Shown here in pieces: positions 13,095-21,021 of a DNA stretch of 21,021 nt. The stretch is taken from the IMG/VR virus record IMGVR_UViG_3300030329_003784, positions 1 through 21,021 of that record. The stretch is one strand, 5' to 3'. The translations under genes and the position numbers were made by a program. The number at the start of each line of letters is the position of its first letter. Within the stretch, counting starts at the first letter, position 1. Below the pieces are notes generated by a model, which had not been told where the DNA came from, ran no database searches, and worked only from the letters and a program-made list of their open reading frames with translations. The DNA comes from a virus.

Positions 13095-13916
13095 CTACGA
13101 TTCCTGACACGAAACTTCGATGATGCCGTTGGCGTCGATCAAAACTGCGTTCATCTGCATCTTGTTTACAAACAGATGAGCTTGCTTTGTACCTTGCCAC
13201 GTCACGTCGAGTTCCACGTCAGCCCCGATTGCGTGACCAATCGAGGACCGGTGATAGGCAAACGTCTTGCGAATACTGCTCGCAACGTCTAACCCGGAAA
13301 AAGCGAACATGGTGAAACCAAGCCACCGCTTGGCCGTTACACCGTCAAGCCATGGGCCTGTACCTGGACCGATATAATCGAGACTTGCGAACTCGGTAAT
13401 ATCCATCAGGTCAGTCCATTGCTGGAAGCCCATGACCCAGAAGCGTCCTTCGTCTTCGGGAACATCGTTGTTACCGAGAGTTTCAAACGCCGAAGTGACC
13501 TTGGCCTTGGTCAATGCCGCCGAGCCGTGTGCGATGGTGCTTGTCGTGGCGTCCATCGCCGTTGTTATCAACTCGTCGGTTTTACGACCAAGCGCCCAGG
13601 CACCGGAACTGGCGGCTACCATGCGCTCGTCAATGTTGATACGAAGCTCATCGAGATCATCGATGTATTCACTTGCGTACCAGTCTTGCAGGGTGACGTT
13701 GACGTTTGTATGCGCGAGATTCATCGGCGAAACGTCACCGCCCCTTGACTTCTGCGACGCCGCGCCCTTGGCAACTTTCTGAAAAGTTGTCTTGTTCGAG
13801 ACGTTGTTCTTCGTTCGAACAGTATTCCGTAGCTTCGAACCTTGGCGTTGGTAAGCCATATGAACGTCAGCTTCAAACTGCTCGATGAAGGCAGTAGAGA
13901 TAGTGTTGGCTGCCAT
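13095..13916 (-). CDS. Major capsid protein (Phage_capsid_2-like)
   Basis: This 273-aa protein has the N-terminal signature of this capsid family: FIEQFEADVHMAYQRQGSKL at ~10-29 and the following RNTVR. Then come a loop-like region, QDWYASEYIDDLDELRINID (~77-96) with the long central helix, and GRFWVMGFQQWTDLM near 156-170. An HK97-type fold is the family's expected structure, inferred and not visible directly. GGAGG lies about 9 bases before the ATG, among the best binding sites in the window, which fits the most abundant virion protein. It follows the scaffold gene after a 131-bp non-coding gap, the only sizeable gap in the head module. Confidence 0.88.
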   Translation of the reverse strand: MAANTISTAFIEQFEADVHMAYQRQGSKLRNTVRTKNNVSNKTTFQKVAKGAASQKSRGGDVSPMNLAHTNVNVTLQDWYASEYIDDLDELRINIDERMVAASSGAWALGRKTDELITTAMDATTSTIAHGSAALTKAKVTSAFETLGNNDVPEDEGRFWVMGFQQWTDLMDITEFASLDYIGPGTGPWLDGVTAKRWLGFTMFAFSGLDVASSIRKTFAYHRSSIGHAIGADVELDVTWQGTKQAHLFVNKMQMNAVLIDANGIIEVSCQES

Positions 13917-14047: not shown

Positions 14048-14908
14048 CTATCCGCCTGTCGGATTGGAGGGTGCAGTTGCTTTGTTGCCGGGATAGGCAC
14101 GCTTCCAAGCGGCCTCCACTTCAGCAACATATGTTTCGTCGCGCTGTAGGGGGTCCCAATAGCGCGGATCATTTTGCATAGCCTTAATCTCAGACTTGCT
14201 TTTCGGCGCGTTGGGAACCGGCGCTTCGCTGCCATTGTTCACACGCGCATTTTTCGTAAGGGATTGGATCTCCTCTACCATCTTAATGCCGTTAGCCGTT
14301 GTCACCACACCTTCCAGGGCCTTATAGGAATCTTCGGTCAGATTGGCCTTGGCCCAAAGATTTACGGCCTCAATTCGCTCGGAGCCGTTGCTGCCAAGCG
14401 CGGCCACTTCGGCATCGTAATTCGGCATGTTGGCGGCTTGCATTTTCACATATTCGGCTATTCCGGCATCAAACTTGTCTTGACCAAACCCGTTGTCATA
14501 TGCCGTTTGCCGCCACCATGATAAAAGCGGATCGTCTTCATTCATTTGCCATTCGGTGCCTTCGGGCAGGGCATCGTCCGGTATATTGAATTTATAGTCC
14601 TCAACCTTTTCTGGCCGGTCTTTTATCTGGCCTTGCGTTACTTCCTTTTCCACATCAGCCCGGACTTCATTGCGCCATTCTTCCGCAGTCTTGCCGCCAC
14701 GAACGATACGGCTGAGTTCTTGCTCTTGATGGCTGTAAGACGTTGCCAATGCCTCGATGTTCGCCTCGCCTTTGCCGTTATCCCAGAACTTTTCTGGCAT
14801 CCACTCAGGACGAGCGGTTTCCGTACCGTTGATTTCTACTTCGGCATCAGAAGTTGCGCCGCTATCATTTTCGGCCTGTAAATAGGGGTGGGGGGTTCGG
14901 ATCAGCAT
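14048..14908 (-). CDS. Scaffolding (capsid assembly) protein
   Basis: This 286-aa, acidic, hydrophilic protein starts at the ATG at 14908, which overlaps the previous stop (TGATG) and has AGGGAA seven bases upstream. A TTG three bases earlier is a less likely start. The motif RPEWMPEKFWDNGKGEANIE (~33-52) followed by a helical SYSHQEQELS is the usual start of podovirus scaffolds. A middle region DYKFNIPDDALPEG (~103-116) is followed by helices, and the C-terminus is basic (AAWKRAYPGN), as expected for a capsid-binding tail. It guides procapsid assembly and is not kept in the mature head. T7 gp9 is 307 aa. Its place between portal and capsid genes is standard. Confidence 0.82.
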   Translation of the reverse strand: MLIRTPHPYLQAENDSGATSDAEVEINGTETARPEWMPEKFWDNGKGEANIEALATSYSHQEQELSRIVRGGKTAEEWRNEVRADVEKEVTQGQIKDRPEKVEDYKFNIPDDALPEGTEWQMNEDDPLLSWWRQTAYDNGFGQDKFDAGIAEYVKMQAANMPNYDAEVAALGSNGSERIEAVNLWAKANLTEDSYKALEGVVTTANGIKMVEEIQSLTKNARVNNGSEAPVPNAPKSKSEIKAMQNDPRYWDPLQRDETYVAEVEAAWKRAYPGNKATAPSNPTGG

Positions 14909-15213
14909 CAAATTCCCTTTTTGCCTCGTTCTATCCGTTGGAGGGTCAACGCAACTTGATAACGCTGGCCTTCAAGATGGCGCAACGCACAATCCTCAAT
15001 TCCAGCGCCCGTGACGTTGTTCATGGTGATCGAGCGTACATAATCGATCCATTCTTGACCGGCTTTGCTTTTGAATACTTCAGCCGCCAGGGCGTTTAGT
15101 TTCCTTTCCGAGTCTGCGCTGCGCCGGATGCCGTCAAGGCCAGTGCGATGACCGGACTTGGCAACCTCGCGTAAATCGACAACTCGATCCCATCCCGATT
15201 TACGTTCCGTCAT
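14908..15213 (-). CDS. Bbp19-like small phage protein
   Basis: This 101-aa protein has WIDYVRSITM (~55-64) and GIEDCALRHLEGQRYQVALT (~71-90) with a helical RIERG end. That matches the pattern F-x-x-x-x-G-x-x-h-h-x-Y-h-x-x-x-T ... LR-x-x-EGQR-x-h-V of the Bbp19-like domain, named after a gene of Bordetella phage BPP-1. Proteins of this family sit beside portal and scaffold genes, and their function is unsettled. The ATG overlaps the portal stop by four bases (ATGA), and the stop overlaps the scaffold start (TGATG), so all three are probably translated together. Confidence 0.65.
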   Translation of the reverse strand: MTERKSGWDRVVDLREVAKSGHRTGLDGIRRSADSERKLNALAAEVFKSKAGQEWIDYVRSITMNNVTGAGIEDCALRHLEGQRYQVALTLQRIERGKKGI

Positions 15214-16853
15214 TGCATTGCACCACCGCCACCGCCTATGGCTTTAGCCAAATCCTGTGGCGGCACACCTTCTTCCATAGCCTGTCCAGCCATTTGTGAC
15301 ACTTCCTCAACAAGCTGCTTGCGCTCAAGATCAGAACGTATGAGATCTTTCGGCACGCCCCAACGCTCGGCCAGATACTTTGCGGCTTTTTCCTGATCGA
15401 ACATCATGCCGACCATTTGCGGTCCAAAACGCATTTGTATCTGCTCAACACAGCGGTCCACATTGAGAATGTCTTGCTGCTCCTGGGCGCGGCCCAAAGG
15501 CGATACCGGATGTACGCGGATCTCCCGGCCATTGATTTCCGGCAGATTGATGCGCCCTCCACGCTTCAGGATATACGCCATACGACGCATAATCGGCTGG
15601 GTTTTTTCCGTCTGTATCCGCCCGAACGGAGAGCCGGTTTGGCGGGAAAACTCAGCCAACCGCTCGGTGATTTCTGTGGCGGAACGCACTGGTTGCTCTA
15701 ATCCGCCTAGCGGCTGATCGTACATTGCCAGACGGATCTTGTTTTGCAGATCCTCCAAAATGAGTTGGCTGACATCGAAGCTGCCGCCTGGTTGTAAAGG
15801 TCGTATGCCATTAGACCCTGCCGATATCGGAATCATCGTACCGGCAACAAACTGTACGGTATGCGGGTTTATGGTCGTGTCGTCGTCATATTGCCACATA
15901 CCGGTAATAGCGGTTTCGGCGTTTTCGAGTGTTAGCTCCACCACCAGATTAGCGACCTTAATATCCGGCAATGCGTTGAGTAGAGGGCCGCGTCCGTAGA
16001 CCTCCGATGAGGACGTAGACCAGCGGAAAATAATCCACGGTGAAGATCCGGGGCCTTCAAATGTGTCTTGTTCGATAGACTCCTGATGCTCAAGAGAAAT
16101 GATATCATGGAGATATTTCTCCGGACCCAACGGATTTGAGCGGTCCCGCAACGTGGTATTGATGATCGTGATTTCCCGCTCCGGTGCATCGCGTATATCC
16201 TTTGCGACCTTATCCGGCATTGTGGCCTTGGGCCATAATTCAGGAATTTGGTGAACCTTGATCTTGCGCGGCCAAAATACGCCGTCAATCGAAGAAAACG
16301 GCCCAGGCTCAAGTACCAGTTCCGGCAGTGGAACGGCACGGAACTCAATCAATTGGTTCAGCGTACCTTCCTCACATAAAAGCGCACCCGTGCCGACAGC
16401 GAGATCTATATTTGCCTCATGGTCTTCCTGGTCAAAGTTCGAGCCGTTTTGCAGCGTATCAAACATATAGTCGTTTACTTCAACCAAGCCCTCATTCACT
16501 TCGTCGCGCTCTTCCGGTGGAATTTCGGAACCGGCGCGAAGCTCGGACCATTTGGCGAAGTTCGGGGTGGTAAAGGACTTTACGCGGGACGCAAAGTTCT
16601 GAACGCTATGAACGGCAGTTGAATCGAATATCTTGTCTGTGCGGCTTTCGCCATACTGCGCCGTATAAAAGCCGCAACGGTTTGGCAGGGCCAAGTCATA
16701 ACAGTCCTGCCATTTTGGCAACCAGTCCTCACGTCTTTTATGCGCTTTGGCATATCTGCGGATAATGACTTCCGTGCGGGAATCCCCGCTCGGCATCATT
16801 TCCGTTGTTCCAGGAATAATCGTGGTATCAGTGGCGCTTCCGGTAACAATCAT
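15210..16853 (-). CDS. Portal (head-to-tail connector), T7 gp8-like
   Basis: This 547-aa protein is close to T7 gp8 in length (536 aa). It begins with a charged helix (RYAKAHKRREDWLPKWQDCY, ~33-52), then LPNRCGF, then the family signature D-S-T-A-V-H-S-V-Q-N-F-A-S-R-V at ~77-91 and TPNFAKWSELR (~96-106). The C-terminal helices include RSATEITERLAEF near 390-402, the usual RSATEVxER motif, and IQTEKTQPIMRRM. It forms the dodecameric ring through which DNA enters and leaves. The start lies 3 bp after the glycine-rich gene with only a weak AGG binding site. A second in-frame ATG at codon 20 is possible, but nothing favours it. Confidence 0.92.
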   Translation of the reverse strand: MIVTGSATDTTIIPGTTEMMPSGDSRTEVIIRRYAKAHKRREDWLPKWQDCYDLALPNRCGFYTAQYGESRTDKIFDSTAVHSVQNFASRVKSFTTPNFAKWSELRAGSEIPPEERDEVNEGLVEVNDYMFDTLQNGSNFDQEDHEANIDLAVGTGALLCEEGTLNQLIEFRAVPLPELVLEPGPFSSIDGVFWPRKIKVHQIPELWPKATMPDKVAKDIRDAPEREITIINTTLRDRSNPLGPEKYLHDIISLEHQESIEQDTFEGPGSSPWIIFRWSTSSSEVYGRGPLLNALPDIKVANLVVELTLENAETAITGMWQYDDDTTINPHTVQFVAGTMIPISAGSNGIRPLQPGGSFDVSQLILEDLQNKIRLAMYDQPLGGLEQPVRSATEITERLAEFSRQTGSPFGRIQTEKTQPIMRRMAYILKRGGRINLPEINGREIRVHPVSPLGRAQEQQDILNVDRCVEQIQMRFGPQMVGMMFDQEKAAKYLAERWGVPKDLIRSDLERKQLVEEVSQMAGQAMEEGVPPQDLAKAIGGGGGAMQ

Positions 16854-16856
16854 AAA

Positions 16857-17252
16857 TTAACCTGTTCCAAGTCCTACGGCGATACGCTTGTGCGTCGTGC
16901 CGCCGCCATATCCCGATGCACTTAACGGATCAGCTGCGGGAGCCGCGGTTGCCGTCGCTTGCTCTACCGGGGGTGATGCCGCTGGCTGACGCAAGGTTCT
17001 GACCGGTTCTGTTGGCGTAATAGGAATGCTTGGGCCGAAAGATCCAGGGGCAGGGGGGTTGCCACCGGCAGTCGTGTTAGGGGTTGATGCTGGCGTCCCG
17101 GTTGTAGACGTTGGACCTGCGCCGATACCCATGCCACCCAGACCGGGATTTTGCCCACCGCTGAAGCCGATGCCGCCAAGTCCCCCACCACTAGAACTTG
17201 AATTGCCGCCGATGCCGCCAAATCCGCCAAACCCTGCGCCTGTTACCGGCAT
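16857..17252 (-). CDS. Glycine-rich low-complexity protein of unknown function
   Basis: This 131-aa protein has a Gly/Ser-rich first third (FGGFGGIGG-type runs, ~8-45), a Thr/Pro/Ala-rich middle (~46-115) and a short basic end THKRIAVGLG. Almost no hydrophobic core is visible, so it is probably disordered. The start is supported by a strong AGGAGG seven bases before the ATG and a 2-bp gap after the preceding gene. It lies between the proline-rich protein and the portal. Low-complexity proteins in this position could be linkers or minor virion components. I do not recognise a family. Confidence 0.72.
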   Translation of the reverse strand: MPVTGAGFGGFGGIGGNSSSSGGGLGGIGFSGGQNPGLGGMGIGAGPTSTTGTPASTPNTTAGGNPPAPGSFGPSIPITPTEPVRTLRQPAASPPVEQATATAAPAADPLSASGYGGGTTHKRIAVGLGTG

Positions 17253-17254
17253 AG

Positions 17255-17482
17255 CTAGCCTCCTAAATTACCCTTTGGGAATCCTAACTCGTCGCCCGAT
17301 AAGAGGCTTTTGTATCCGCGCCGCCCACGTTTCAGTTGCGCTTTTTCCTCACGCTCTAAATCTTCCTGCTTTTTCTTCTCTTCAGCGGCTTGGCGTTCAG
17401 CCTCCCTCCGTTGCCTACCCAGTTCTGGGTCTGGCGGTGGTGGCGGCGGCGGCGCTTTCGGTGCTTTGAAAATTCCACCCAT
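17255..17482 (-). CDS. Small proline-rich, coiled-coil phage protein
   Basis: This 75-aa protein starts at the ATG at 17482. AAGGAGAGG lies six bases upstream, inside the end of the previous gene, which rules out the upstream TTG at 17500 because that codon lies within the binding site. It begins MGGIFKAPKA, followed by seven prolines (11-17), a Glu/Lys/Arg-rich helix (~20-52) and the end GRRGYKSLLSGDELGF (~53-68). Small proteins with MGG-x-F, a proline run, a charged helix and a GRRG-x-x-SLL end are common in podovirus packaging or head modules. I know no function for them. A virion linker is one possibility. Confidence 0.75.
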   Translation of the reverse strand: MGGIFKAPKAPPPPPPPDPELGRQRREAERQAAEEKKKQEDLEREEKAQLKRGRRGYKSLLSGDELGFPKGNLGG

Positions 17483-17483
17483 C

Positions 17484-17876
17484 TTATACCTCTCCTTCAA
17501 ACGTAGGTTCGGCGCCCGCTTTCAACATGGCGCGGTATAAACCATGGGGGGTAAAACAAAACCCGCGAAAGCCGATGACATCCTTCATCATCGAAACACA
17601 GGTACGAAGCGAATAACCGTGCGTTACACAATGCTGTTCCGTCCAACTCAATGCTTTGCCGTTCCGTTTTGCAAAGTGGATGAATCTTTCCACATCTACG
17701 GCTTCAGCAATACGCACAATGACCTGCCCCGGTTGCGGCTCGACAAATAGCCATTGTTTATTATCTGCGTCATAGGCAAATGCCATGACATGACGAAAGC
17801 CCTTTCGCGTCCAGATCCGCGCCCACAGCTGCTGCGGATAGCCAGGAAAATCCAAAAACAGCACATTCCAAATCAA
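17484..17876 (-). CDS. Conserved phage protein, possible papain-like (LRAT/permuted NlpC-type) fold
   Basis: This 130-aa protein begins at a TTG that overlaps the terminase stop (TTGA) and ends 1 bp before the next gene. There is no Shine-Dalgarno, and a GTG at codon 5 is an alternative start, so the N-terminus is uncertain. Seen in the sequence: RHVMAFAYD with His29, WLFVEPQPG (42-50), then Cys93 at the start of a helix (TCVSMMKDVIG) and FTPHGLYRAML (~108-118). A His followed by strands and then a helix-starting Cys is the order found in LRAT/permuted NlpC-P60 folds, whose members cleave or form amide or thioester bonds. Whether it is an active enzyme is unknown. His29 and Cys93 are only candidate catalytic residues. 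Small proteins like this are found near terL in several podoviruses. Confidence 0.6.
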   Translation of the reverse strand: MIWNVLFLDFPGYPQQLWARIWTRKGFRHVMAFAYDADNKQWLFVEPQPGQVIVRIAEAVDVERFIHFAKRNGKALSWTEQHCVTHGYSLRTCVSMMKDVIGFRGFCFTPHGLYRAMLKAGAEPTFEGEV

Positions 17877-19408
17877 TGGACGGCAAAGCGTTGAGTCCGA
17901 GATGTCAGCCTCCCTTTTTGAATGCGCCGGTCAAAGATATTCTGTGACCGCTCCACTACATGCGGCTTGGCTGGTTTATCGCCTATTGTCAGTGCGCGGC
18001 CTTCACCGGCACCCAGCATGAGATATTGAAGCGCATCATGCGGGTGAGATGCCTTGTTCTTGGCTGGCCGCTCCTGGTACTGGTCGATAGTTCCGGCAAC
18101 GGACGGAAAATTATATCCGCCGTTAAAGCCTTGTTTGAGAACCACGCAGCGCGGATCGATCAGAATACCTGGTTGTCCGTCAATCATGCGGTTGAGAACC
18201 GTCTCCACGGCTTCAATACGAATATCGGGATCGTTGGTCGGCGCTTTTCTGGCTATCAAGCCTTCAGCGCGGAAAATTCTAAACGGCGTATTTTCGTCGG
18301 TCTGTGCGCGATGATCGCCAGCCGGATCGCCGTAGATCAGAAACTTGGCACCTTCGGTAAGAGGAAACTCGCCCATTGCCTTTTTGATCTCACCGGCAAA
18401 GCGCTTCGCCCCCATATCCGAGCGCACCACTTCCTTCAGAATACGCCAGCGGCCATGAAGGCTCTGTGCGAATATCGCTGCTGGGGTCAACCCAAAATCC
18501 ACACCCACCCATACGTCCTGTGACGGCACACATTCGAGCGGCTCCTTGGCGATATGTGCTTCCTGGCGGAATGTCGAATAGACCGGCTTGCCAGCAGAGT
18601 GGGTGCCGAGCTTGTTCATCACATACACGTCGATCCAGTCCTGGCCCTTACCTTGAATCAGGCCGGGGTAATAATCGCCATCCAGGTTTCTCACATTTTC
18701 GGCACGTTGATTGACATGGTATCCGGTGACTTCGCCCTGCGCGTTTGTCTTTTCCAGCATTCCGGGCGGCTGAGTGAAGAACTCCCAATCGGCGGGTGTC
18801 ACCAGCGTCAGCCGGTCAGCCTCACTCATCCATTCCGGCACGGGTACTTCGCCAGCCATGATCGGCCACCAATGTTCTTCGGAAGGCGCGTTGGTATCCA
18901 TAATCAGGCCCGACCATGTAGCCCCACCGTCCTTCATCGCCGGGAATCTTCGCAATCTGCTGGTTGCCGCATCCACGATCTGCTTCGGCACTTCACGGGC
19001 CTCGTTGATCCAGCAGAAAGTCAACTCAAGCGATAACAGCTTTTTAATATCTTCAGGCTTGTCGAGTGCGAGAAAGATTACCTCAAGCTCGATATCGTTG
19101 ACCTTAATCATATGAATGAAGGGCGGCGACCATGAGAAATGCCCGAAATCGTTTTCCGGAAACCATTCGAGCCATGTTTTGGCCGTGGTCAGTTTTAGTT
19201 CCGGAAACGTATTCCGCACGATTGCCGCACGGCTGCGCCGAATGCCTTTATCGTCAGGTTCCTGGGCGCAAGCGCGGCGGAATATCTCTATACAACAGGC
19301 CGTTGACGTACCGGAGCCGATAGGGCCGCGTATGCCGCGAACAAATCTGTCCGACTTCATAAAGGATTTAAGAACCGTACCATCCGGCTTATAGGTGATG
19401 GTAGGCAT
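17873..19408 (-). CDS. terL: Large terminase subunit
   Basis: This 511-aa DNA-packaging motor has an N-terminal ATPase and a C-terminal RNase H-like nuclease. The Walker A position at 28-35 reads GPIGSGTS, with Thr34 where Lys is expected. Walker B is LTFCWINEAREV (129-140), with Asn-Glu as is usual in this family, and the coupling motif is LIMDTNAP (169-175 region). The nuclease carries the three expected acids: Asp304 in VGVDFGL, Asp361 in IYGDPAGD and Asp458 in SHPHDALQY. It cuts concatemeric DNA and pumps it through the portal. The ATG overlaps the stop of the 74-aa gene (TAATG), and no strong binding site is seen. The missing Walker A lysine is the odd point (codon ACG where AAG would give Lys). 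Confidence 0.93.
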   Translation of the reverse strand: MPTITYKPDGTVLKSFMKSDRFVRGIRGPIGSGTSTACCIEIFRRACAQEPDDKGIRRSRAAIVRNTFPELKLTTAKTWLEWFPENDFGHFSWSPPFIHMIKVNDIELEVIFLALDKPEDIKKLLSLELTFCWINEAREVPKQIVDAATSRLRRFPAMKDGGATWSGLIMDTNAPSEEHWWPIMAGEVPVPEWMSEADRLTLVTPADWEFFTQPPGMLEKTNAQGEVTGYHVNQRAENVRNLDGDYYPGLIQGKGQDWIDVYVMNKLGTHSAGKPVYSTFRQEAHIAKEPLECVPSQDVWVGVDFGLTPAAIFAQSLHGRWRILKEVVRSDMGAKRFAGEIKKAMGEFPLTEGAKFLIYGDPAGDHRAQTDENTPFRIFRAEGLIARKAPTNDPDIRIEAVETVLNRMIDGQPGILIDPRCVVLKQGFNGGYNFPSVAGTIDQYQERPAKNKASHPHDALQYLMLGAGEGRALTIGDKPAKPHVVERSQNIFDRRIQKGRLTSRTQRFAVH

Positions 19409-19632
19409 TATCCATGCACGATAGGTTTTGCTGCCAAAATACCTGCATCGACCTGGGCCTTGATCTGCTTTTCAGCAACTTGCGGCCCAAGCGAGGCGAT
19501 GATCTTGTCGCATTCATAATCATTGATATGCCGGTCAGGATAATGCCGCATTTGGACGCGGCGAACCGACGCTCTCAGGCGGCTTAAATCGTCATGGGAC
19601 AGACCGGTAATCCACTCAAGTCCCTCGCCCAT
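19408..19632 (-). CDS. Small conserved protein directly upstream of terL
   Basis: This 74-aa protein contains RHYPDRHINDYECDKIIASL (~29-48) and a helical VAEKQIKAQVDAGIL. It resembles a small family of phage proteins found next to terL, with a motif of the type YP-x-x-x-I-x-D-x-E-x-D-x-x-I-x-x-hGP. Its function is unknown. The start is 3 bp after the 36-aa gene with no clear Shine-Dalgarno, and its stop overlaps the terL ATG, so it is probably translated by coupling. By position it could be mistaken for the small terminase. But at 74 aa without a helix-turn-helix it is a poorer candidate than the fragment at 20830-21021. Confidence 0.65.
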   Translation of the reverse strand: MGEGLEWITGLSHDDLSRLRASVRRVQMRHYPDRHINDYECDKIIASLGPQVAEKQIKAQVDAGILAAKPIVHG

Positions 19633-19635
19633 GAT

Positions 19636-19746
19636 TTAGGCGTATTTCACAGCACGGCGAGGCTTTCTTGTGCGCTTTGTCACCTTTCTCTTGGTTCCAG
19701 GCTTGGCCCGTTTCGGTTTCTCGCCGTATCCTTTACCTTTAGGCAT
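19636..19746 (-). CDS. 36-aa highly basic small protein
   Basis: The ATG at 19746 has GGAG eight to eleven bases upstream. The product begins MPKGKGYGEKPKRAKPG and ends RRAVKYA. It has 16 Lys or Arg residues out of 36 and only one acid. Tiny basic proteins beginning MPKGKGYG are found in packaging or lysis regions of many podoviruses and are usually left unnamed. Nucleic-acid binding or a minor virion role is possible but not shown. It ends 3 bp before the 74-aa gene. Confidence 0.6.
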   Translation of the reverse strand: MPKGKGYGEKPKRAKPGTKRKVTKRTRKPRRAVKYA

Positions 19747-19764
19747 CGCTTTTCTCCATGATTG

Positions 19765-19878
19765 TTACCGGCCCCACAGAAGGAGCCTTTTGAGGCGTGA
19801 AAATATGCGTCTAATCCATCTATAGAGGCTGAAAAGACCATCGGTAACGTGCTTGGCAAAGATCATGTGGAACATCAT
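19765..19878 (-). CDS. Putative 37-aa cationic amphipathic peptide
   Basis: An ATGATG overlaps the TGA of the upstream gene, and the frame stays open to a TAA at 19765. The peptide starts MMFHMIFAKHVTDGLFSLYR and continues with a helix rich in Arg, Lys, Trp, Phe and Leu. Nine of the last 20 residues are Arg or Lys, and the only acid is Asp13. Plotted as a helix it would have one hydrophobic and one basic face, like membrane-active peptides. No Shine-Dalgarno is visible beyond coupling. It could be a small lysis or membrane-acting product, or a chance ORF. I recognise no homologue. Confidence 0.4.
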   Translation of the reverse strand: MMFHMIFAKHVTDGLFSLYRWIRRIFSRLKRLLLWGR

Positions 19879-20174
19879 TGCGTGGTTTCCAGCATCCTCG
19901 CGCCAGGAGACAAAATACCGTCCCGGCCATGCGCCTTCTGGCATTCAAAGCCAGCGTTTTCGAGGGTGGCGGTCCATGTACCGGAGCCAAAATTCATATA
20001 AATCCGGACGATATCTCCGGTTCCGGTAATGCCCTTGAAAATGCGGTTCTCACCAAACTTCTGCGAAAGTGTGTCACGCCAGATTTCGTGCGGGGGACAG
20101 CCTGGGGGTTGTTGACGCACGCCCTCTTGAGGCGTTGCGGCGATCAGTACGGCAGTCGTGGCTTCCAGTAACAT
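19875..20174 (-). CDS. Small secreted-type protein (host-like family)
   Basis: This 99-aa protein has a short hydrophobic N-terminus (TTAVLIAATP, ~6-15), then GCPPHEIWRDTLSQKFGENR (~25-44), FKGITGTG, a strand IVRIYMN and SGTWTATLENAGFECQKAHG (~64-83). The layout is an export-like start, C-x-x-x-x-x-h-x-x-L-x-x-x-(F/Y)GE, G-x-x-x-x-G, then TWT-x-x-h and Cys-x-x-x-x-G. It matches a family of small uncharacterised secreted proteins that I associate with alphaproteobacteria and their phages. The function is unknown. The two cysteines (26 and ~79) may form a disulphide if it is exported. GGG is very close to the ATG, so the binding site is not ideal. Its TGA overlaps the start of the 37-aa ORF. 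Confidence 0.55.
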   Translation of the reverse strand: MLLEATTAVLIAATPQEGVRQQPPGCPPHEIWRDTLSQKFGENRIFKGITGTGDIVRIYMNFGSGTWTATLENAGFECQKAHGRDGILSPGARMLETTQ

Positions 20175-20354: not shown

Positions 20355-20693
20355 CTATGTTTTAGAATCCCGAAAAGCATGAAGAACTTCAAACAAATCA
20401 CAGCCCAATTCCCTATCAGTCAAATCATCATAAACATCCGAAACAAACTCTCTATCCGGCCTCAAAGCATTCGGCGCCCGACGACCACGGCCTACTCCCG
20501 ATACCGGAACAACCTCTAGCTCGTACCCTAAAGCCCCTAAAATATTCTCCAGCTTACGAACCGTCGTTTCCCGCCGACCGCCTTCAACCGCCGCCAGCGT
20601 CGAAGCGGCAACCCCGGAATCCAAAGATAACTGAGACCGCGTTATCCCAGCCTCACGTCGTAACTCCCCTAAAACTACTCCCGTCCAATGCAA
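20355..20693 (-). CDS. XRE-family helix-turn-helix transcriptional regulator
   Basis: I chose the TTG at 20693 because AGGGAG lies six bases upstream of it. The longer frame from a TTG at 20720 would put that binding site inside the gene. The product is 112 aa. Residues ~7-60 form an HTH_XRE domain: LGELRREAGITRSQLSLDSG, then VAASTLAAVEGGRRETTVRK, then LENILGALGYELEVVPV. The GYELEVVP end is typical of HipB-like and phage XRE proteins. A basic linker (~66-80) and an acidic helix (~82-105) follow. It probably represses or tunes a nearby promoter. It is unusual that it lies between the probable small terminase and the rest of the packaging genes. No toxin partner is visible in the window. Confidence 0.78.
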   Translation of the reverse strand: MHWTGVVLGELRREAGITRSQLSLDSGVAASTLAAVEGGRRETTVRKLENILGALGYELEVVPVSGVGRGRRAPNALRPDREFVSDVYDDLTDRELGCDLFEVLHAFRDSKT

Positions 20694-20829
20694 GGCACAC
20701 TCCCTAGCAAAAATATACAATACGCCCTCATATGGGACTGCGTGCTTTTGAGAGCATTTCTAGCTGTGAGGGGCCTTAAGGGGAACGGTAGTACCCCACT
20801 TTCGGAGGGGGGGTCTGTTATAGACACCC
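20694..20829 (-). other. Non-coding leader of the XRE gene with competing hairpins
   Basis: Directly after the stop of the partial terminase gene, GGG-T-GTCT/AGAC-CCC forms a 7-bp stem with a bulge (20829-20810). Its C-run can instead pair with GTGGGG (20793-20813), giving a mutually exclusive hairpin. Further along are the 8-bp palindrome CCTTAAGG (20774-20781 region) and the short palindrome GGTACTACC. No T-run follows any stem, so simple termination is not supported. No convincing promoter was identified. Confidence 0.35.
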
Positions 20830-21021
20830 TCATCCGAGGTCTATGTTGATCGACACGTCGTGCTGGTGCTGCACCTTTTCTGGTGCCTTGAACCCTGCAC
20901 GATCGAGGAGATCCTTGCTTGCTTCGAGTTGCACATACTCACTCTTGGCACTGAGTGCTAAGCGATTGAGTACATGTGAAGCTCCAACAGCACCTAGACC
21001 AACCTGTTCTGCTACTCTCTG
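20830..21021 (-). CDS. Probable small terminase subunit, C-terminal 63 codons (5' end beyond window)
   Basis: The frame runs from the window edge to a TGA at 20830. The visible part ends with a helix HVLNRLALSAKSEYVQLEAS, then KDLLDRAGFKAPEKVQHQHD and a strand VSINIDLG. The pattern A-x-S-x-x-x-h-x-h-x-A-x-x-x-LLDRAG(F/Y)-x-x-x-x-K, then a short acidic/hydrophobic end, is typical of phage small terminase C-termini. Small terminases recognise the viral DNA and hand it to TerL. The DNA-binding N-terminus is outside the window, so it could be a related HTH protein of similar build. Confidence 0.6.
   Translation of the reverse strand, partial: QRVAEQVGLGAVGASHVLNRLALSAKSEYVQLEASKDLLDRAGFKAPEKVQHQHDVSINIDLG

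Follow-up and report, generated by a model that had tools for sequence, protein, structure and literature searches.

The lysine of the Walker A motif is held to be indispensable, and mutating it is a common means of inactivating ATPases with a P-loop. Among phage packaging motors, deviant Walker A motifs of terminases with a moved lysine were reportedly described by Mitchell and Rao in 2004, and in lambda gpA a lysine, K76, stands at the start of the P-loop. Mu gp28 is described with L70 at the canonical site and K64 at the start of the loop (PMC7363723). For the large terminase subunit (TerL) of HK97, PMC9410871 reports that K57 and K60 are both needed and that changing the Walker A lysine to alanine abolishes packaging and ATPase activity, which shows that this relative pays a price for losing the lysine. 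The TerL of D6E has a trans-acting arginine, R158, placed between helix 3 and strand 4 (PMC5727402). The HK97 and D6E enzymes share their two-domain fold with the terminase analyzed here, D6E being its best structural match, and according to the same sources both combine a Walker A lysine with a further basic side chain three residues earlier (K60 and K57 in HK97, K47 and R44 in D6E), whereas the terminase analyzed here has neither.

This terminase is encoded in a stretch of viral DNA of 21,021 nucleotides (IMG/VR record IMGVR_UViG_3300030329_003784, positions 1 to 21,021), referred to below as the window. Its closest named relatives, the TerLs of Pelagibacter phage Hodr (55% identity over 96% of the window protein) and Burkholderia phage BcepC6B (42% identity over 93%), have the same order of motifs and keep GPxGSGK[ST], whereas the window's group reads GPIGSGTST. 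The protein is probably a functional TerL of the BcepC6B/Hodr type whose P-loop works without the Walker A lysine, with threonine in its place and the charge supplied elsewhere.

Threonine at the Walker A lysine position

The TerL reading frame starts with ATG, is open throughout, and matches PHROG family phrog_2, terminase large subunit (E 6.2e-19). It belongs to a head-gene module on the minus strand that comprises a small terminase, an XRE-type regulator, small ORFs, TerL, a 130-aa gene, a connector and the major head protein (Table 1), and thus has the placement beside small terminase and portal/connector that is a hallmark of TerL. Further hallmarks, namely the Walker B glutamate, the coupling asparagine and three nuclease acids, are present in the window protein; the canonical Walker A GK[ST] is absent, GTS standing in place of GKS. 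A PDB sequence search returned no terminase, and a distant DNA search of positions 14900-20000 against phages returned no match.

Table 1. Positions of terminase residues and neighboring genes in the window.
Feature	Position	Strand	Basis
TerL, 511 aa: N-terminal ASCE ATPase domain and C-terminal RNase H-like nuclease	17873-19408	-	
P-loop GPIGSGTS, residues 28-35	19304-19327	-	direct reading
Thr34 codon ACG, Walker A lysine position	19307-19309	-	
Thr36, hydroxyl residue accompanying Thr34	19301-19303	-	
Arg27, substitute proposed in the initial annotation	19328-19330	-	
Arg24, substitute proposed in the initial annotation	19337-19339	-	
Asn135-Glu136, Walker B glutamate	19001-19006	-	
Arg151, candidate trans-acting arginine lying between helix 142-151 and strand 167-172	18956-18958	-	by position
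Asn173, coupling-motif residue (DTN)	18890-18892	-	
Asp304, nuclease	18497-18499	-	
Asp361, nuclease	18326-18328	-	
Asp458, nuclease	18035-18037	-	
130-aa gene, directly after TerL and overlapping its end	17484-17876	-	
Small terminase, C-terminal part	20830-21021	-	phrog_2538, E 1.7e-8
XRE-type HTH regulator, between small-terminase fragment and TerL block	20355-20720	-	HTH_3
Head-tail connector	15210-16853	-	PF12236
Major head protein	13095-13916	-	phrog_3437

A ligand-free AlphaFold (AF2) model of the window TerL (mean pLDDT 88.8) has the ordinary P-loop layout, with a strand at residues 23-27 (pLDDT 98), the loop at 28-33 and a helix from residue 34 (pLDDT 96). Its top match among solved structures was D6E TerL, aligned across both domains (Z 21.6, rmsd 15.2 over 380 residues), followed by the ATPase domain of P74-26 TerL (Z 19.8, rmsd 3.6 over 216 residues) and by Sf6, HK97 and T4 TerL, each spanning both domains. 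By these matches the model has the hallmark fold of an ASCE ATPase joined to an RNase H-like nuclease.

The initial annotation had read GPIGSGTS at residues 28-35 with ACG as the threonine codon, and direct reading bears this out; the family pattern with lysine, against which it set this motif, is likewise real, as in the Hodr TerL and other Lys-type relatives. It had also described the rest of the enzyme as intact, in agreement with the open frame and with a 69-row alignment in which N135, E136, D304 and D361 are invariant and D458 nearly so. A twin contig (IMGVR 3300020477_000113, 26,483 bases) shares 11,072 bases with the window with a single mismatch, none of it in TerL. A search with the whole protein, demanding no motif, identified 23 loci. 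Column 34 of the close homologs, which the initial annotation had singled out for inspection, is threonine in all seven loci at 73-100% identity, twin included (codons ACG, ACC, ACA and ACT); the six besides the twin are 73-76% identical to the window TerL and use other threonine codons. Among the remaining 16 loci, 15 have lysine, and the region around position 34 is absent in one. Over 44 loci, Thr34 is encoded by ACT (13), ACG (13), ACC (12) and ACA (6). Thr34 is therefore a real feature of this terminase, and extends further than the initial annotation had reported.

Distribution and history of the Lys/Thr switch

A strict pattern, RG-RGP-GSGT[ST], identified 19 viral contigs, all encoding TerLs of the window's family; since the strict patterns required Arg24 and Arg27, rows found in this way are uninformative on those two residues. 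Without this demand, a looser search, which still required Ile/Met26, Gly28, Pro29 and Cys38, returned 79 viral contigs, 78 of them with TerLs carrying Thr34 (23 known before and 55 of 56 new). Within the RG-RGP context, position 34 of TerLs was only lysine or threonine among the codons scanned (AGR and ATR were left out): scans of C-, G- or T-first codons and of ADY codons returned eight contigs and no TerL. The Lys-type pattern gave at least 120 rows, a figure from which no Lys-to-Thr ratio was derived.

A related form, GPxRSGTS, was found in 11 viral contigs and the phage record Mwe-JY08, as well as in records filed as Bosea, Microvirga and Chelatococcus genomes and as a Methylocystaceae MAG; the same genome scan identified GPVGSGTSS in a Flavobacteriales MAG contig, bringing Thr34 overall to five bacterial genome records and one phage record. 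The Flavobacteriales contig (L185, 32 kb, filed under MAG MED638) is possibly a mis-binned phage, its group B type of TerL occurring otherwise on viral contigs. Mwe-JY08 (PP395640, L045 in our set) is deposited as a complete phage with Microcystis wesenbergii as stated host; its TerL is 75% identical to the TerL in the Microvirga genome, so this host may be doubtful and should be treated with care. A literature search found no paper naming Mwe-JY08, none on GSGTS in connection with terminase, and no biochemistry of a Thr-type TerL.

The history of position 34 was followed in trees built with the P-loop columns left out, after exclusion of rows shorter than 440 aa and of four named rows. Thinning of 140 rows left 121 at 92% identity and 80 at 82%, and the 80-row tree needs four Lys/Thr changes; a 55-row tree, from which eight long-branched and 25 dense Lys rows had been removed and to which eight GPIRSGTS rows had been added, needs three; and a 91-row tree (135 rows thinned at 75%) needs seven, at least four of them forced by starred branches. 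A single Thr clade was rejected (p-AU 0.007), also in a denser sample of 55 inner rows hand-picked from the 91, with two nested Lys rows allowed in (p-AU 0.004), and with a far lower p still when all 91 rows were used. These rejections firmly support, at the level of sequence phylogeny, that position 34 changed between lysine and threonine more than once. One clade of the Thr rows minus group B (L028, L317 and kin) was not rejected (p 0.16 and 0.35), and groups A and B as one clade are borderline (p 0.052).

Since the outer relatives have lysine, the simplest reading of the trees is at least two gains of threonine; an alternative is one early gain followed by several returns to lysine. L327 groups with Lys rows on a starred branch. 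Two Lys rows, L280 and L309, are nested in the largest Thr clade (support 100 for the branch), which suggests reversals. The second of these, L309, is a Bradyrhizobium plasmid record that also encodes a portal, a major capsid protein, an integrase and an S24 peptidase, and is possibly a phage-plasmid. Recombination of the ATPase half was considered as a cause of the scattered threonines, and the short half-protein trees (residues 1-215 minus 24-37, and residues 255-475) did not discriminate, each needing four changes of which starred branches force only one.

Candidate replacements and integrity of the enzyme

The clearest partner change going with Thr34 in the alignments is a hydroxyl residue at position 36. 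Serine or threonine occupies this position in 63 of the 71 Thr rows (66 unique sequences) versus 10 of the 64 Lys rows. Two of the search patterns favored Ser/Thr at 36, affecting 8 of the 71 Thr rows, and 33 Lys rows absent from the 135-row set include three with Ser36 and three with Thr36; with those eight left out and the 33 Lys rows restored, the counts become 55 of 63 Thr rows versus 16 of 97 Lys rows. Among four independent pairs, Ser/Thr36 goes with Thr34 in 3.18 concordant versus 0.07 discordant, ranking first of 150 columns. Residue 35 is serine in all 71 Thr rows, and serine or threonine in Lys rows. A hydroxyl residue at 149 was lost in Thr lineages (0.11 versus 2.44 in the independent pairs).

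A mechanism for a functional P-loop lacking the lysine can be proposed on this basis. The hydroxyls of Thr34, Ser35 and Ser/Thr36 would, together with backbone amides of the loop, hold the phosphates and Mg2+, and the missing positive charge would come from outside the loop, most likely from an invariant arginine of the neighboring subunit in the ring; a metal ion could be the alternative source. ATP affinity would be expected to be lower than in Lys-type relatives. Arg151, an arginine shared by all 71 Thr rows and by 61 of the 64 Lys rows, may be that trans arginine by its position: in the order of structural elements it has the same place as R158 of D6E (PMC5727402). Arg154, three residues further on, is conserved in 56 of the 71 Thr rows. 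A more far-reaching version, in which these are lysine-independent motors with no substitute in cis, the hydroxyl cluster binding K+ or using the neighbor's arginine so that ATP binding is completed only in the ring, is a tentative possibility that we consider clearly less likely than the general reading above.

The 130-aa gene that follows TerL was also considered as a partner of Thr34. It matched neither Pfam nor PHROG families; His29 and Cys93 are invariant in a 60-row alignment, and a predicted model (pLDDT 90) resembles YiiX (2if6) at Z 6.6 with rmsd 4.0 over 112 residues, and a cysteine peptidase from Bacillus (3kw0) at Z 6.2 with rmsd 3.7 over 106 residues. With Z below 8, a YiiX-like fold is assigned tentatively, and the product is perhaps a permuted NlpC/P60 protein. 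Relatives of the gene were found near 59 of 61 Thr-type versus 42 of 124 Lys-type TerLs (deduplicated TerLs with at least 700 bases downstream; matches on the same strand, mostly within 1 kb), the two Thr-type exceptions being L350 and L352. It was rejected as a partner: the gene occurs also in Lys relatives that adjoin the Thr groups, and the association may simply reflect shared ancestry.

A source of charge within the loop region itself, the lysine being replaced by Arg27 or Arg24, and in the GPIRSGTS group perhaps by Arg31, is the better surviving of the rival explanations, and we consider it rather unlikely. The initial annotation had proposed a clade in which the charge had moved to Arg24 or Arg27; the clade stands, and the substitution fails as a general one. 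The window TerL and those closely related to it carry both arginines, Arg31 of the GPIRSGTS group lies three residues before position 34 like K57 relative to K60 in HK97 and R44 relative to K47 in D6E, and relocation of the lysine is known in terminases: PMC7363723 and PMC5727402 cite Mitchell and Rao 2004 for it, and such a shift has been proposed for lambda gpA and Mu gp28. However, residue 24 in the 71 Thr rows is Arg (31), Ser (18), Lys (15) or other (7), and residue 27 is Gln (35), Arg (28), Met (5) or other (3). Both arginines are absent from 33 of the 71 rows, 15 of these 33 having Lys24, and 15 of the 71 (13 unique) have no lysine or arginine anywhere at residues 23-37. To judge from these alignments, Arg24/Arg27 fails as a general substitute for this reason. 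Moreover, near Lys-type relatives share Arg24 and Arg27, which argues against a specific gain, although many such rows were found by a pattern demanding both; and separate lineages would require separate substitutes. In an outer set of 30 Lys rows not chosen by their P-loop, residue 27 is methionine in 18, near-copies included. The window TerL itself has no lysine at residues 23-37, and hence no start-of-loop lysine of the lambda/Mu type, but it has Arg24 and Arg27; its residue 31 is glycine, where 15 of the 71 Thr rows have arginine, so that the basic residue of the HK97/D6E type is absent. All 15 rows that lack a basic residue close by fall within a single part of the largest Thr clade, so Arg27 or Arg24 may still play a local role in the group to which the window TerL belongs.

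Searches of the alignment for a basic residue gained elsewhere gave no universal candidate. Across six Thr-versus-Lys contrasts over 511 positions, no residues except 102 and 387 showed a gain of lysine or arginine in three of the contrasts, and an earlier count with 11 Thr and 69 Lys rows gave no basic gain. Among 159 columns compared in independent pairs, the best basic gain was at residue 22 (1.74 concordant versus 0.01 discordant, four pairs), followed by 98 and 102, none of them universal. Residue 102 is lysine or arginine in 66 of 71 Thr rows versus 32 of 64 Lys rows, and is Asp, Glu, Ser or Tyr in some rows. The strongest signal among the basic columns is a loss, at residue 122, in the Thr lineages (0.02 versus 3.08 of four pairs); the window TerL itself retains Lys122. 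Our preferred reading, a functional P-loop with charge supplied elsewhere, is held slightly less firmly because the 15 rows lacking a nearby basic residue belong to one subclade and the direction of the switch is not proven.

A dead TerL ATPase, with another protein driving packaging, would be in keeping with the abolished activity of HK97 TerL K60A (PMC9410871), and the initial annotation had raised an inactive copy as one option. However, none of the 71 Thr rows departs from N135, E136, D171, N173, R65, R151, R397, D304 or D361, and Asn173 is likewise present in 64 of 64 Lys rows. At position 458, 43 Thr rows have Asp, 26 have Glu and two have a gap. In the window's group, where each of the ten pairs is saturated at synonymous sites, residues 1-200 have pN/pS of 0.08-0.17 and non-synonymous differences of 0.06-0.14 per site; the nuclease domain of this group gives a higher range, 0.20-0.30. 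Corresponding pN/pS values for residues 1-200 are 0.12-0.17 in group B and 0.19-0.36 in the GPIRSGTS group, the latter indicating weaker selection. For four Lys-type relatives the range is 0.24-0.32, but their synonymous divergence is lower, which precludes a strict comparison between the groups. These values indicate, at the sequence level, that the ATPase domain is under purifying selection. Each of eight records searched has one TerL match. No second GxxxxGK[ST]-like motif was detected in ORFs of at least 90 aa on two Thr-type contigs of 34-35 kb, which are of uncertain completeness and were read in pieces, so that an ORF spanning a cut could escape; one further Walker-like match was found in the window's twin, in a 138-aa frame, and three in Mwe-JY08. 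Kept catalytic residues, purifying selection, a single TerL match per record and the lack of a second Walker motif on those two contigs, together with the repeated switching and wide spread of the Thr type, make a dead enzyme very unlikely. An error of sequencing or assembly, suggested at first by ACG being one base away from AAG, can be dismissed as refuted, since the twin contig agrees and Thr34 is common to many contigs, which between them use all four ACN codons.

Comparison with known motors

Lambda gpA and Mu gp28 resemble the window TerL in being packaging motors without lysine at the canonical position. They differ in having a lysine at the start of the P-loop, where the window loop has none and 15 of the 71 Thr rows lack any basic residue at 23-37. 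In the available portions of six papers (PMC5727402, PMC9410871, PMC7363723, PMC10127595, PMC7947584 and PMC2366019), these two were the only terminases described without the canonical lysine. What is new in the present case, as far as the alignments reveal it, is that the shape of the loop is kept with no lysine inside, and that some members of the family lack even a basic residue close to it.

The Walker A lysine is thus probably not essential in a motor of the window type. A common phage motor family that switched from lysine to threonine, and apparently back, amounts to a natural experiment, and matched pairs of Lys- and Thr-type enzymes could be used to measure the role of the lysine in a ring motor. 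Automatic motif checks, moreover, would label Thr-type terminases inactive. Outside the terminases, the closest parallel is Kti12 of Eurotiomycetes with the K14L change, for which lower ATP affinity and catalysis persisting at high ATP are reported (PMC7363723). Kti12 differs from the window TerL in being another ATPase, in having leucine or isoleucine and not threonine, and in its restriction to one fungal class; its P-loop lysine has nevertheless been lost naturally in a clade that is conserved, which makes it the best precedent for reading the Thr-type TerL as a working lysine-less motor.
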